From Inhella inkyongensis (lineage in GTDB: Bacteria > Pseudomonadota > Gammaproteobacteria > Burkholderiales > Burkholderiaceae_C), in contig NZ_CP040709.1 of assembly GCF_005952805.1 (NCBI RefSeq), positions 930,001 to 994,000 of the forward strand: a stretch of DNA of 64,000 nt, written 5' to 3'. Positions 24,415-40,517 of the stretch are shown in pieces (position 1 is the first letter of the stretch; each line of letters opens with the position of its first letter). A program made the translations under genes and the position numbers. The notes under the pieces were generated by a model, which was given only the letters and a program-made list of their open reading frames with translations, had not been told where the DNA came from and made no database searches.

Positions 24415-25311
24415 TCAAGCCTCAGGTTTCAAGCCCCCAGCCCCTTGCTGCAGTTTGATCAACTGGCTGACCCGCGCCACAGAGAGTCCCAGCTCGCGGG
24501 CCATCGCGCTCATCGTCAAGCCGGCTTCGCGGTGGCCCAGCCACAGCGCCTGCTCCCGGCTGCTGCATTCGGCCAGGTATTGGCGCAGGGTCTTGGGGTG
24601 CGCGGCCTGGCGTTGCGCCTTCGGGGTGCCGGTCTTCTTTTGAAGTTGGGGCTCACCGCCCGCCAACGCCTGCATGCGCGCCACGAACGCCTCATCCCCC
24701 AGGTAGATCTGCTGCCGCAGCCCCTGCTCCCATAGCGGTTGATCGCGCGCGGCGGCCACCAGCTGGGCATAGCGCCTTGCCGCCCGCGCCTGCAGGGCCG
24801 GCGTGCTGGCGGGCTGTGCCAACAGATAGGCGTGCAGGCCGGCGCAATCCAGCCAGGGCGGCGCCTCGACTCGCAGGCAATGTGCGCGGTAGCTGGACCA
24901 GGCCCAATCGCCGGGCTCGCCCACCATGCGGGCGCGCACCGGGTTGAGCTCGACGTAGCGGCAGACCTCGAACAGATAGGTCTCGCGGTCCACCAGCACC
25001 GCCTTGTAGCGCCCCTGCAGCAGATGGCCCACCTTACCGTGGCGGCGGTTGTAGGCCTGGGTGTAGCGGCCGTTCAGTTGCTGCATCAGTGCCGCAAGAT
25101 TGGCGCGGCGCGTGTGCAGCACGAAGTGGTAGTGGTTGCCCATCAGGCAGTAGGCCAGCATCTGCGCATCAAAGCGCTCCAGCGTCTGGGCCACGATGTC
25201 CAGCAGCAACTCGCGGTCACCGTCGTCCTCAAAGATCGGCTCACGCCGATCCCCCCGCGAGGTCAGGTGGTAGATGGCGCCAGGGAATTCGATGCGCAGG
25301 GGGCGGGACAT
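24415..25311 (-). CDS. REP-associated tyrosine transposase (RAYT, IS200-like Y1 domain)
   Basis: A 298-aa single-copy Y1 transposase of the RAYT type. The N-terminal domain begins MSRPLRIEFPGAIYHLTSRG. The HUH metal motif is NHYHFVLHTR, the Y1 domain continues through GRYTQAYNRRHGKVGHLLQGRYKA, and VCRYVELNPVRARM is typical of RAYTs. A C-terminal helix-turn-helix (LTMSAMARELGLSVARVSQL) may bind DNA. RAYTs act on REP hairpins and do not move as classic IS elements. Its 5' end and leader are duplicated just upstream, and short repeats occupy the flank. Confidence 0.9.
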   Translation of the reverse strand: MSRPLRIEFPGAIYHLTSRGDRREPIFEDDGDRELLLDIVAQTLERFDAQMLAYCLMGNHYHFVLHTRRANLAALMQQLNGRYTQAYNRRHGKVGHLLQGRYKAVLVDRETYLFEVCRYVELNPVRARMVGEPGDWAWSSYRAHCLRVEAPPWLDCAGLHAYLLAQPASTPALQARAARRYAQLVAAARDQPLWEQGLRQQIYLGDEAFVARMQALAGGEPQLQKKTGTPKAQRQAAHPKTLRQYLAECSSREQALWLGHREAGLTMSAMARELGLSVARVSQLIKLQQGAGGLKPEA

Positions 25312-25357
25312 GCGCTGAATTTAGGCGGCGGGGGCGGGGACTTCAAATTTGAGGCCT

Positions 25358-25402
25358 GACCCTGGAGCCCTAGACCCTGGAGCCCTTGACCCTGGAGCCC
25401 CT
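25358..25402. repeat. 15-bp minisatellite, three units
   Basis: Three adjacent 15-bp units: GACCCTGGAGCCCTA, then CTT and CCT variants at the last three bases. It lies exactly between the two copies of the RAYT 5' end and starts inside the last bases of the first copy's REP-like sequence. Confidence 0.9.
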
Positions 25403-25403
25403 G

Positions 25404-25565
25404 GTAGGCCAGCATCTGCGCATCAAAGCGCTCCAGCGTCTGGCCCACGATGTCCAGCAGCAACTCGCGGTCGCCGTCGTCCTCAAAGATCGGCTCACGC
25501 CGATCCCCCCGCGAGGTCAGGTGGTAGATGGCGCCAGGAAATTCGATGCGCAGGGGGCGGGACAT
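25404..25565 (-). pseudogene. Truncated RAYT 5' fragment (54 codons)
   Basis: Duplicate of the first 54 codons of the adjacent transposase gene, from ATG at 25565 to the codons MLAY. After the junction the frame runs through the minisatellite into unrelated sequence, giving a Gln/Gly/Leu-rich tail. It lacks the HUH histidines and the catalytic Tyr, so it cannot be an active transposase. It may still carry the binding and promoter sequences of the gene. Confidence 0.85.
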
Positions 25566-37037: not shown

Positions 37038-38528
37038 TCAGTGCGAAGTCCCTTCGCTGCGGGTGATCTTGTTGAACAGGTTGTACTTGCCCACGGGCTT
37101 GCTCATGGGCAGGCGCTTGACTTCCTTGAAGGTGGCGGCGTCGAACACCACCAGGGCGCCGTCCATCTCCCACACGCTGGCCAGGGCGAAGCGGCCATCC
37201 TTGGTGAACTCGATGTGCGCCAGGGTCTTGCCGGGCTCGCGCACCTCGGCCACCACCTCCAACGTGCGCTTGTCGATGATGGAGAGGCGGTCCTTGGCCT
37301 TGGGCGCCATCATCGAATCGACCCAGGCATAGGGCGTTTTTTCATGGCTGCGCATGAAGAAACCCGGGCCGGGGGTGGGGATGGTCTTGACGGTCTGCCA
37401 GCTGCCGAGGTCGATGACGTCGATGGCACCGTCCTTGAGGTTGGGGCTGGCCAGTACGCGACGGCCTTGGTAGTCGAAGGTGATGCCCGAGCCCAGGTGC
37501 GGCATGCCGGCGATCGGCAGGTTGGCGACCTTGCGGCCGGCGTCCAGGTCGACCACCTGCGCGCGCGCCTCACCATTGCCCTGCGGCCGACTGGCGCCCA
37601 GCGCGTGGCGGTAGGCGGGGTCGAAGAAGAAGTCGTCCAGCGGCTCTTCCAGCGCGATGCGGCGCGGCGCAGCGAGCTTCTTGCCCGAATAGGAGATCTC
37701 CCAGAGTTCGGGTAGATCCTTGAGCGCGACGACAAAGCTCTGGCGCGGCGCGGCGTCGTAGGCGGCCGAGACGCGTGAACTCTCGACGCCGGCGCGGGTG
37801 GCGTGGCTTTGCACCAGCTTCAGATCACTGTCGAACAGCACGATGTTGTGCGGCAGGTAGTTGGCGGCGATGACCCAGCGACCATCGCTGCTGACGGCCA
37901 CATTGCGCATGTTCAGCCCGGCGCGCACCTCGGCCACGAGCTTGAGGTTCCACAGGTCGTATTTGCTGATCCAGCCGTCGCGCGAGCCAAAGAACACGAA
38001 GCGCCCGTCGGGGCTGAACTTCGGGCCGCCGTGCAGCGCGTAGCGCGTGGGGAAGCGGTGGATGGGCTCGAAGCGGTCGCCATCCACCAGGCTGACATGG
38101 TGGTCGCCCCCCTCAACGACGACGAAGAGGTTCATCGGGTCGGCGCTCCACACCGGCTTGTGCGGCAGCTTTCGGGCGTCGGCATGTTGGATGCGCGAGG
38201 CCTGGATGTCCACTTCGCTCCAGCTCGGCGTGGGGCGCACGGGTTCATAGATCAGCTTGGAAAGCGCTTCGATATCGGCCGGTTGCAGCTGCTCTTTGAA
38301 GGCTGGCATCTGCGTGGCGGCGCGGCCCTCGGCGATGGTCTTGCGCGCCTCGGCCGGCCGCAGCCGCGCCAGCGACTCCGGCAACAAGGCCGGCCCCATG
38401 CCCCCGGTGCGCTGCGCGCCGTGGCAGCTGGCGCAGTGCTGTTGGTAGAGCTTGTGGGCATCGATGGCGGTCTCGGCCAGTGCGCTCAGGCTGAGGGTGG
38501 AGAGGGCGAGGGCGAGTAGGCGCTTCAT
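37038..38528 (-). CDS. nirN: NirN, dihydro-heme d1 dehydrogenase (c-type cytochrome with d1-type domain)
   Basis: A 496-aa periplasmic protein. Signal peptide LLALALSTLSLSALA, then a c-type heme site CASCHG and an eight-bladed d1-type propeller. The segment RYALHGGPKFSPDGRFVFFGSRDGWI matches NirN rather than NirS, where the corresponding region is different. NirN is known to finish heme d1 synthesis by introducing the last double bond. ATG 38528 (MKRLLALAL) is preferred over an upstream GTG-type frame. A 337-bp gap separates it from nirJ, and it may have its own promoter. Confidence 0.88.
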   Translation of the reverse strand: MKRLLALALSTLSLSALAETAIDAHKLYQQHCASCHGAQRTGGMGPALLPESLARLRPAEARKTIAEGRAATQMPAFKEQLQPADIEALSKLIYEPVRPTPSWSEVDIQASRIQHADARKLPHKPVWSADPMNLFVVVEGGDHHVSLVDGDRFEPIHRFPTRYALHGGPKFSPDGRFVFFGSRDGWISKYDLWNLKLVAEVRAGLNMRNVAVSSDGRWVIAANYLPHNIVLFDSDLKLVQSHATRAGVESSRVSAAYDAAPRQSFVVALKDLPELWEISYSGKKLAAPRRIALEEPLDDFFFDPAYRHALGASRPQGNGEARAQVVDLDAGRKVANLPIAGMPHLGSGITFDYQGRRVLASPNLKDGAIDVIDLGSWQTVKTIPTPGPGFFMRSHEKTPYAWVDSMMAPKAKDRLSIIDKRTLEVVAEVREPGKTLAHIEFTKDGRFALASVWEMDGALVVFDAATFKEVKRLPMSKPVGKYNLFNKITRSEGTSH

Positions 38529-38570: not shown

Positions 38571-38679
38571 CCATCAGGTCGGTGGGGTGCCGCATGAAGT
38601 GAAGTAAAGGATGAGATGACGGCCGCGAGGCCGGCATCGGGGGACATGAACGGAATGCGGTACCCCACTGGCCTGATGG
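38571..38679 (+). ncRNA. Candidate structured RNA element, copy 1
   Basis: A 109-nt fold. Stem P1 is 24 bp (38571-38594 with 38656-38679), fully paired with three G:U wobbles. An inner strand at 38599-38614 (GTGAAGTAAAGGATGA) lies opposite 38639-38654 (GGGGGACATGAACGGA). P2 is a stem at 38615-38624 with 38629-38638, closed by a GCGA tetraloop and containing one A.G mismatch. All three wobbles are legal on the plus strand only. A second copy in the opposite orientation shares the core but not the stems. It points away from nirN on the plus strand. Confidence 0.7.
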
Positions 38680-38724
38680 GCTCGGTGATCGCGTGCAAAC
38701 GGGCTTTCCCACACTGAGCGGGCG

Positions 38725-38825
38725 CTGCGGGCACAGGGTGGGTGTCTCCGTTCATGTCCCCCGACCTGGGCTCGCGCCCAGGCCTCCTCCTTGACTTCAC
38801 TGCGACACCCACCCTGCACCCGCAG
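38725..38825 (-). ncRNA. Candidate structured RNA element, copy 2 (facing copy 1)
   Basis: A 101-nt fold on the minus strand, in the sense of nirJ, beginning 41 nt after its stop. P1 is 22 bp (38825-38804 with 38746-38725) with two adjacent wobbles, legal only on this strand. The inner strands are GTGAAGTCAAGGAGGA (38800-38785) and GGGGGACATGAACGGA (38762-38747). P2 is 9 bp (38784-38776 with 38771-38763) with a GCGA loop. The stems differ in sequence from copy 1 at nearly every position yet pair perfectly. The AAGGAGGA stretch could bind 16S rRNA. Confidence 0.7.
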
Positions 38826-38865
38826 TTCGGGGTACCGAGTGGCTCGAAGTGGTGTGGAGGCCATG

Positions 38866-40038
38866 TCAAGCCACTTCGCTCACGAACCCAATTTCTTCAT
38901 CCGTGAGATAGCACCCGGGATCCGAAGCCCAGGCGTCCCCTGTGGTTTGTTGCGCCCGCACGCGGGTGTTGCCGCCGCAGATGGACAAGTGCGCGCAGTC
39001 GCCGCAACGGCCGTGCACGGCGCGCGGCTGCTGCTTCAGGCCGGCCATCAGTGGCTCGGTGGTGTCGCTCCAGATTTCGGAGAAGGGGCGCTCGCGCACG
39101 CTGCCGAGTTTGTGATGCCACCACATGGTGTCAGGGTGGACGATGCCTTCGTTGTCGATGTTGGCCACATAGAGCCCGCTGGCATTGCCGCCCCAGGCTT
39201 GCAGGCGCTGTCTCACGTCCTCCACCCAGCGGGGTGCACGCTGCGCCAGCCACTGCAGCAGGAAGGGGCCATCGGCGTCGTTGTTGCCGGTGACGTATTC
39301 GCGCTCACTGCCGGCTTGCGCGTCGGCCCAGGCGGCGTCGAAGAGCTGCTCCATGGCCTCGCGCGTGGCCACGAAGTGCGCGTCCTTGGCGCGGTGGATG
39401 TTGCCGCGGCCGGCGTAGTTCAGGTGCGAGAAGTAGAACTTCTGCGCCCCCTCGTCCTTCATCAGCCGCAGCAGGGCCGGTAGCTGGTCGGCGTTCATCG
39501 CCGTCATCGTGTAGCGCAGGCCCACCTTCACGCCGCGCTGCTGCAGATGGCGCACGGCCGCCAGGCTGGCGTCAAACGCGCCTTCCTTGCGGCGGAAGCG
39601 ATCGTGCACGGCGGCTATGCCGTCCAGGCTGATGCCCACGTAGTTGAAATCGGCGGCGGCGATGCGATCCGCCATGGCGGCGTCGATCAGCGTGCCATTG
39701 GTGGAGAGGCCGACATAGAAGTTCATCGCCTTGGCGCGTGCGGCGATGTCGAAGAGGTCCGCACGCAGCAGGGGCTCGCCGCCACTCAAGATGAGCACCG
39801 GCACGCGGAAGGCCTTGAGGTCGTCCATCACGGTGCAGACCTCGGCGTAATTCAGTTCGTTCGGGTAGTCGTGGTCGGCCGAGAGCGCGTAGCAATGCTT
39901 GCAGGTCAGGTTGCAGCGCCGCACCAGATTCCAGATCACCACCGGCCCGGGCGGGCTTCCATGACGCTTCGGGTGCGGGTAGACGCCGGTGCGCTCGGCC
40001 TCGACCACTTCACGCAGGTACTGGCTGATTCGAAACAT
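38866..40038 (-). CDS. nirJ: NirJ, radical SAM heme d1 biosynthesis enzyme
   Basis: A 390-aa radical SAM protein that replaces two propionate side chains of 12,18-didecarboxysiroheme with oxo groups. The radical SAM 4Fe-4S ligands are CNLTCKHC (about 43-50). The C-terminal SPASM-like region has further cysteines in CGDCAHLSICGGNTR and DPGCYLTDEE. ATG 40038 begins MFRISQYLREVV, the conserved N-terminus of NirJ, 2 nt after the nirH stop. Its strand has a downstream region with the structured element. Confidence 0.95.
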   Translation of the reverse strand: MFRISQYLREVVEAERTGVYPHPKRHGSPPGPVVIWNLVRRCNLTCKHCYALSADHDYPNELNYAEVCTVMDDLKAFRVPVLILSGGEPLLRADLFDIAARAKAMNFYVGLSTNGTLIDAAMADRIAAADFNYVGISLDGIAAVHDRFRRKEGAFDASLAAVRHLQQRGVKVGLRYTMTAMNADQLPALLRLMKDEGAQKFYFSHLNYAGRGNIHRAKDAHFVATREAMEQLFDAAWADAQAGSEREYVTGNNDADGPFLLQWLAQRAPRWVEDVRQRLQAWGGNASGLYVANIDNEGIVHPDTMWWHHKLGSVRERPFSEIWSDTTEPLMAGLKQQPRAVHGRCGDCAHLSICGGNTRVRAQQTTGDAWASDPGCYLTDEEIGFVSEVA

Positions 40039-40040
40039 GA

Positions 40041-40517
40041 TTAGTCGTCCTTCAGTCGCAGGCCGGTCTTCTTCAGAATGGCGCTGGAATACAGCACGTC
40101 GTCGGCGCGGCAGGCCTTTCCTAGCAGCGCGCGCAGCTCGATGCGTTGGGCTTCCACCTCGGCGCGGCTGCGCCCGTGCAGCATGGCGAACAGGTTGTAG
40201 GGCCAGCCCGGGGCGCGCGGCCGTTCGTAGCAATGGCTGACGCCGGGCAGGGCGCCGATGCGCGGGCCCAGTTCGGGGAGTGCCGCGTCGTCGATGTCCC
40301 ACACCGTCATGCCATTGGCTTTGAAGCCCAGGCGGTAGTGGTTGGGCACGGCGCCGATGCGGCGCACCAGGCCGCGCGTCAGCATGTCGGCGAAGCTGCG
40401 TTGTACGTCGGCCGCGCTGCAGCCCAGTTGTTCGGCCACGACTTCGTAGGGGCGTGCTACCAGCGGCAGGCCGCCTTGCGTGGCTTGGATCAGGCGGCGT
40501 TCGAACTCAGTCAGCAC
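40041..40517 (-). CDS. nirH: NirH-type Lrp-like siroheme decarboxylase subunit
   Basis: A 158-aa AsnC/Lrp-fold protein that serves as a subunit of siroheme decarboxylase. It has an N-terminal winged helix (PYEVVAEQLGCSAADVQRSFADMLTRGLV) and a C-terminal RAM-like domain (GVSHCYERPRAPGWPYNLFAMLHGRSRAEV, with a WPYN motif and the catalytic-region His). GTG 40517 is the start since GGAG lies 7 nt upstream and it overlaps the previous stop by 11 nt. The exact H/G labels come from order and similarity to the canonical nirDLGH set. Confidence 0.85.
   Translation of the reverse strand: MLTEFERRLIQATQGGLPLVARPYEVVAEQLGCSAADVQRSFADMLTRGLVRRIGAVPNHYRLGFKANGMTVWDIDDAALPELGPRIGALPGVSHCYERPRAPGWPYNLFAMLHGRSRAEVEAQRIELRALLGKACRADDVLYSSAILKKTGLRLKDD

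Follow-up and report, generated by a model that had tools for sequence, protein, structure and literature searches.

A two-hairpin intergenic repeat between nirJ and nirN of Inhella inkyongensis, kept by base pairing and possibly read as single-stranded DNA

The gap between nirJ and the gene in the nirN position of Inhella inkyongensis holds two structured segments that face each other, and the locus raises the question of what these segments are and whether their structure is used as RNA or as DNA. The window, that is, the whole stretch of 64,000 nucleotides that was analysed, is the frame for all positions given below for this site. The first-pass annotation had described two copies of one element, with outer stems (P1) of 24 and 22 bp, shared core strands and a GCGA-capped inner stem (P2), and these parts are all seen in the sequence and in the fold. 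Two covariance models, R1 (built from 21 copies) and R2 (built from 138 copies), also return both copies where they had been placed, at 38572-38683 on the plus strand and 38718-38827 on the minus strand. The features of the site are the following.

37041-38528, minus strand: same-strand downstream gene, cytochrome c / beta-propeller protein in the nirN position (name from the first-pass annotation)
38572-38683, plus strand: hairpin copy 1, type A outer stem (107.8 bits with R1, E 7e-22; 91.2 bits with R2; RNA fold z -8.1)
38572-38595, plus strand: copy 1 outer stem P1, 5' strand, 24 nt, the family-wide P1 being the inner 23 (fold, family statistics)
38599-38614, plus strand: copy 1 core 5' strand GTGAAGTAAAGGATGA, Y-GA-R tandem G.A motif and purine loop (sequence, core pair counts)
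38615-38638, plus strand: copy 1 inner stem P2 with GCGA loop (fold, P2 pairs in the alignment)
38639-38654, plus strand: copy 1 core 3' strand GGGGGACATGAACGGA (sequence)
38655-38678, plus strand: copy 1 outer stem P1, 3' strand (fold)
38684-38717, no strand: spacer between the 3' sides of both facing hairpins (sequence, model placement)
38718-38827, minus strand: hairpin copy 2, type B outer stem (99.5 bits with R1, E 5e-20; 99.6 bits with R2; RNA fold z -7.5)
38725-38746, minus strand: copy 2 outer stem P1, 3' strand (fold)
38747-38762, minus strand: copy 2 core 3' strand GGGGGACATGAACGGA (sequence)
38763-38784, minus strand: copy 2 inner stem P2 with GCGA loop (fold)
38785-38800, minus strand: copy 2 core 5' strand GTGAAGTCAAGGAGGA (sequence, core pair counts)
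38804-38825, minus strand: copy 2 outer stem P1, 5' strand, 22 nt (fold)
38866-40302, minus strand: upstream gene nirJ, frame from the first GTG (TIGR04051, 612.8 bits against a cut-off of 515.45)

The NirJ profile match spans residues 119-472 of 478, and no NCBIfam model scored above its cut-off on the product of 37041-38528. Six genomes of the genus yielded a single close relative of nirN, in G005, at 88% identity, with different DNA upstream. In both copies the strand that carries the core folds better than its complement: as RNA, the z values are -8.1 vs -5.6 for copy 1 and -7.5 vs -5.3 for copy 2, and as DNA they are -7.0 vs -4.4 and -6.2 vs -4.4, respectively. None of 200 shuffles was as low in energy as a core strand.

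The family-wide statistics were drawn from 226 copies chosen by core sequence alone, with stem pairing no criterion; 391 raw core matches, less 134 with poorer cores, left 257 with at most two core mismatches per side, from which 31 near-duplicates were removed. In this set the outer stem is a gapless helix of 23 bp, beyond which pairing fades. Its 22 inner stem positions comprise 4326 Watson-Crick, 393 G:U, 40 A:C and 213 other cells, whereas sliding one arm by a single base gave 1454 Watson-Crick, 417 G:U and 538 A:C cells, and the other slide gave 1572, 506 and 367. A second alignment, A2, consists of 138 sequences and is model-fitted, hence biased towards the structure; 95.8% of its 4387 cells are paired, 31 of its 33 pairs show two-sided change, and its covariation score is 0.763, against 0.193 after shuffling and 0.086-0.106 after sliding. 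The hairpin is a fixed shape kept by pairing, made of the 23-bp stem, a short mismatch collar, the core, a purine loop and the inner stem. With two-sided change in so many pairs and a core strand that folds better than its complement, the earlier proposal of a structured, covarying signal at the level of a single strand stands. The wobble asymmetry first noted in the two copies likewise extends to the family, in which wobbles are admitted on the strand that carries the core, whereas the corresponding mismatches of the opposite strand are not tolerated.

This ten-to-one excess of G:U over A:C fits either RNA or DNA. It counts against an alternative to which we assign a rather low probability, namely that the hairpins are passive cargo or a sub-terminal structure of ordinary MITEs moved by DDE transposases, their pairing being produced by mutational copying from arm to arm and not by use of the fold, since such copying is not expected to spare one strand. 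The same alternative leaves the conserved, non-Watson-Crick core unexplained. Here a covarying Y-R pair (171 CG and 38 TA of 226) and a likewise covarying R-Y pair (198 AT and 22 GC of 226) enclose a tandem of G.A (213 of 226) and A.G (219 of 226), the geometry of which would be sheared; the R-Y pair is followed by G-C, T-A, a bulged A and then a purine box in which GGNGG faces GGNGG. The purine loop reads NAAGGNGGA facing GGNGG, and its GG runs might form a quadruplex, while the inner stem is usually capped by GNA or GNNA. The two variable bases of the box are linked, with A/G in 176 copies, G/A in 33 and G/G in none against 28 expected (226 copies, relatedness ignored); neither this exchange nor the loop rule described below is accounted for by passive carriage. 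At one orthologous site (L056/L071/L058), the exchange, GGAGG/GGGGG to GGGGG/GGAGG, differs between genera, the swap running one way in one hairpin and the other way in its partner.

The tips of the inner stems bear on which molecule folds. Among 220 copies, 111 of the 142 triloops are c(GNA)g and 19 of the 37 tetraloops are c(GNNA)g, and GNRA loops number only nine; a C-G pair thus closes a GNA or GNNA loop in 130 of 220 copies, and the other 90 do not fit. (Another method counted 125 c(GNA)g loops; the value of 111 is used here.) DNA mini-hairpins of extraordinary stability follow a published rule, a GNA or GNNA loop together with G-C pairs (PMC4686876), and the inner-stem tips of the element have the same sequence; the mini-hairpins treated there are short DNA fragments that stabilise aptamers, whereas the present ones belong to a dispersed genomic element. 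The loop argument rests on this literature, because the RNA and DNA energy tables used give no bonus to GNA triloops.

Transcription offers a second comparison. Between codirectional genes, a copy lying antisense to them pairs no worse than a sense copy, although its core strand would not be present in the operon transcript: the antisense set has 100 G:U, 12 A:C and 64 other cells in 64 copies, and the sense set has 99, 7 and 40 in 55 copies, with p values of 0.20 to 0.67 for the pairing differences (copies with fewer than 14 of 23 pairs excluded on both sides). Single copies between codirectional genes show no orientation preference either, with 10 in the same and 7 in the opposite orientation. 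These three results, from the tips, the antisense pairing and the orientation, lean towards single-stranded DNA. Core mismatches, at 0.16 in sense and 0.64 in antisense copies (p 0.02, uncorrected), lean towards RNA.

The main rival reading places the signal at the RNA level: the hairpins would act in transcripts that run out of genes, serving 3' ends in both directions (by stability, by RNase- or Rho-type termination or by protein binding), and this use would be why the repeat was kept. Its case comprises the tolerance of G:U and not of A:C (393 vs 40), the better-kept cores of sense copies, and the gene context and the retained structure at orthologous sites described below; the equally well-paired antisense copies, the 10 vs 7 orientation of single copies and the rarity of GNRA loops (9 of 220, against 111 c(GNA)g triloops) speak against it. 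We consider it possible, though improbable. Folding as single-stranded DNA, which we put at about an even chance, is favoured over it. The suggestion that the internal loop is a ligand- or protein-binding RNA motif is accordingly weakened, given antisense copies that pair equally well and tips that follow the rule for DNA mini-hairpins.

Gene context was taken from reading frames picked by codon GC, not from annotation, and the count left out 60 copies near edges and 58 without context. The remaining 201 copies comprise 68 between convergent, 126 between codirectional and 7 between divergent genes, against 60, 188 and 91 among gaps of 40 bp or more that hold no element within these loci. Divergent-gene gaps are depleted (p 7e-8) and convergent-gene gaps enriched (p 0.001) in copies, with counts halved for pairs and relatedness ignored, and this bias is what an RNA-level role at 3' ends can claim for itself. 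The unit occupies numerous unrelated intergenic positions, most of which do not separate divergent genes. The flanking proteins have no common theme: in 120 of 175 that were scanned, the commonest Pfam family has five members (among the most frequent 25 of 169 families), and a cis regulator of one pathway is excluded by these varied neighbours. At one locus (L165), an unrelated second palindromic repeat, of the CGGGAATGACG type, lies between two copies of the element.

A partner hairpin accompanies 222 of 259 copies under a strict partner pattern, which was used as a looser one is likely to catch chance partners. Over all collected loci, neighbouring hairpins form 121 pairs, 111 of them divergent and 8 convergent, whereas all four pairs of the own genome (38572-38827, L009, L011 and L012) are convergent, so that the own lineage is unusual in its hairpin arrangement. 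The facing orientation described at first is therefore true of every pair in this genome and is rare over the loci as a whole.

The search for siblings by the 16-nt core, proposed in the first-pass annotation, was productive. The own genome (4.08 Mb) has 10 matches to the 16-base core with at most two mismatches, which form four facing pairs, the window's included, and two lone matches, and all ten fold alike in general shape. Each of the four pairs holds one stem of each of two sequence types recognisable by eye, so the outer stems, contrary to the first description, are not wholly unrelated in sequence. The exact pattern is present in 5 of 40 genomes, own included, and in at least 120 contig stretches; among the matches listed are Rubrivivax, Hydrogenophaga, Variovorax, Rhodoferax, Rhizobacter, Aquabacterium, Paucibacter, Sulfurisoma and Ideonella. 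With model R1, the family was found in 115 of 250 genomes of the own taxonomic family (own included) and in 75 of 141 genera; this survey scored up to 15 candidates in each genome, which makes its copy numbers lower bounds. With model R2, the yield was 12 of 250 genomes sampled across the order, among which four belong to the own family and a further one, G411, is weak; a sample of 299 from the phylum gave 6, again with four from the own family. Outside the own family, the element is patchy. Viral contigs, searched with regard to phage carriage, gave no match to the exact pattern. Among plasmids, one record, from Burkholderia anthina, matched DNA of the window and carries one full hairpin, flanked by genes annotated as alpha/beta hydrolase and 2-hydroxymuconic semialdehyde dehydrogenase.

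Evidence of mobility comes from this plasmid-borne copy, from one syntenic site and from the elements of G242. In G163, a hairpin pair lies between two genes read from sequence as ABC-transporter genes, and a 452-bp segment (query bases 645-1096) is absent at the syntenic junction in seven relatives (one site compared). At the empty junction the flank matches overlap or stand 2 to 8 bp apart in G246, G275, G278 and G016, and they are separated by 25 to 29 bp in G272, G277 and G281; at the same junction, G285 has about 209 other bases, and the flanks of G273 lie on different contigs.

In G242, many copies with identical inner stems sit on elements of about 650 to 870 bp, which have hairpins close to both ends and in which no gene can be made out by eye. 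A terminal repeat, GGTTCATCGCCGATCTGCGG, is common to five complete elements, and 8-bp duplications flank three of the five (L306, L308 and L310), with AAAAAAGA twice, AATGAAAA twice and one pair mismatched. These three elements have no intact hairpin, the core being missing or represented by its 3' half only, and L305 and L312, which have hairpin cores at both ends, show no clear target duplication. The hairpin was therefore not needed for the insertions of L306, L308 and L310. Ends reading TCATAC.G..CTTGC recur by eye in several copies of G064, with no consistent duplication, and in the own genome CTCGGTG recurs near the ends, also by eye, with terminal repeats and duplication not clear. The element ends in these three genomes are unlike, so that the termini differ among the lineages compared and the hairpin is what they have in common. 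Outside P1, flanking positions are conserved at 58% at most in the 226 copies, so no family-wide cleavage site is visible.

MITEs are elements moved by DDE transposases, and the G242 elements resemble them in their terminal inverted repeats and in the 8-bp duplications on sister elements. Passive carriage on such MITEs draws its support from these repeats and duplications (one imperfect, none with an intact hairpin), from the termini that differ by eye between G242, G064 and the own genome, and from two-base compensations among close G242 copies. The element is unlike MITEs in that its shared part is a strand-specific fold, with termini that vary between the lineages looked at. As to the compensations, L279 and L286 are close copies of L277 with two adjacent compensatory stem changes, from AGCTTG/CAAGCT to AGTCTG/CAGACT, hinting at either rapid arm-to-arm copying or selection. 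In the same genome, the right ends of L277, L278 and L285 adjoin, by eye, the T-run of an apparent intrinsic terminator, which suggests a preference for terminator tails or A/T-rich 8-mers.

The fate of copies after insertion could be followed at two orthologous sites, one common to three genomes of two genera and one to two genomes of one genus, with flanks 82-90% identical; a third (L052/L237) was set aside, having different arrangements in two genera. At both sites every hairpin is recognisable and paired over most of its stem. The comparisons L056/L071, L056/L058 and L063/L070 together give 18 stem pairs with two-sided change still paired, 12 with one-sided change still paired and 5 with pairing lost, and L071/L058, which is not independent of these, gives 11, 6 and 3. 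Structure kept in this way indicates that the copies are maintained after insertion, or renewed by conversion, and is more than a mere transposition remnant would show; the two-sided changes at these sites also belong to the case for the RNA-level reading.

The element is a mobile repeat of the REP/BIME/MITE kind and not a riboswitch-like RNA, an assignment based on its being an inverted pair, intergenic, dispersed, absent at one syntenic site and carried on the terminal-repeat elements of G242. The first-pass annotation had named a MITE or REP with stems conserved by sequence as the outcome that would speak against its proposal; a mobile dispersed repeat it is, with stems kept by pairing more than by sequence. 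Like REP/BIME units with RAYT, as characterised by Nunvar et al. 2010 (PMC2817692), it is intergenic, multicopy and palindromic, alternates in orientation and keeps complementary mutations. It is unlike them in that its hairpin measures about 110 nt, with a 23-bp stem and an internal loop that is both elaborate and conserved, and in having no constant GTAG-like foot tetranucleotide, as the ceiling on flanking conservation in the 226 copies indicates.

That the hairpins are classical REP/BIME units of a RAYT (Y1) transposase is very improbable in our estimation. Their inverted pairing, intergenic position and copy number would suit it, as would the REP-associated Y1 gene of the window; however, among 26 copy-rich genomes there are 8 in which a Y1 transposase domain was not found, and 7 of these yielded no Y2 either. 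The element does not flank the Y1 loci searched, since 36 Y1 gene loci hold no copy except one weak match of 23.3 bits, and six genomes in which the exact pattern is missing, four of them negative with the model too, all carry Y1. The genomes that lack Y1 largely refute this reading, unless the enzyme was lost after the spread. RAYT (Y1) and Y2 transposases, the two families searched for genome-wide, are thus not supported as mobilisers, being without a match in several copy-rich genomes and, for Y1, encoded at unflanked loci. These searches link no enzyme to the element, which also counts against the favoured reading. The element departs from RAYT-associated repeats on these tests, and its shape is its own. 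The Y1 gene of the window lies at 24415-25311 on the minus strand (NCBIfam NF047646, 80.3 bits against a cut-off of 80); its first part is duplicated, in truncated form, just upstream (25263-25565), with short 'CCCTGGAGCC' repeats between.

Among structured candidates, MRSC-65-2 is the closest in description. PMC11109978 presents it as a mobile or repeat candidate with dozens of copies per genome and a covarying stem, possibly acting as DNA, all of which is like the present element; it is a single long stem with a UYCCGG repeat, found in diverse phyla. Compared with that published description, the present element differs in its two helices around a purine loop, in having no conserved UYCCGG and in occurring mainly in Burkholderiales. 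In the open-licence literature searched, core-like strings included, the element is not described among the matches listed.

Rfam assigned no family at gathering score to the hairpins, which counts against any RNA-level reading. The only overlaps with them, both far below threshold, were mir-3151 (23.5 bits vs 83) and StyR-3 (17 vs 59), and 12 sibling loci gave no match at E up to 0.1. Toxic small RNAs, flagged at the outset as the family to rule out first, gave no match of that name on the window at E up to 5. For a riboswitch, a toxic small RNA or a ribosome-binding decoy, one can cite AAGGAGGA, which occurs in copy 2 and many siblings, and the purine-rich loop. Beyond the Rfam result, the flanking genes are varied, with at most 5 of 120 per Pfam family, and the ATG is lost in step with its pairing partner. 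The ribosome-binding interpretation of copy 2 does not survive these comparisons: the position of GG-N-GG varies, and ATG becomes ACG together with its partner (GAAGT/CATGA to GAGGT/CACGA). We regard this group of explanations as having a negligible probability.

Taking the evidence together, there are even prospects, in our judgement, that the window's two hairpins are one copy of a mobile intergenic two-hairpin inverted repeat that is read as a fold of single-stranded DNA. The core strand would fold once exposed as single-stranded DNA, and a dedicated protein would read the internal loop. With one hairpin per strand, the same signal may be presented on both strands, as in REP/BIME, and recognition would serve the spread or upkeep of a non-autonomous element. 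More tentatively, and with a clearly smaller chance of being right, the family may constitute a new kind of dispersed element, selected in the form of an intricate single-stranded DNA fold that has a core resembling a DNA aptamer, with tandem sheared G.A pairs and a GG-N-GG/GG-N-GG box between two helices, and a mini-hairpin tip, present once per strand, read by a replication or transposition protein and spreading without Y1 or Y2 in Burkholderiales.

With 31 of 33 pairs covarying and a non-Watson-Crick core, in 115 of 250 genomes of one family and yet below every Rfam gathering score, the element provides a clear test case for telling DNA-level from RNA-level covariation. It illustrates that a covarying intergenic structure can be a mobile repeat, and it points to a putative protein that would recognise it.
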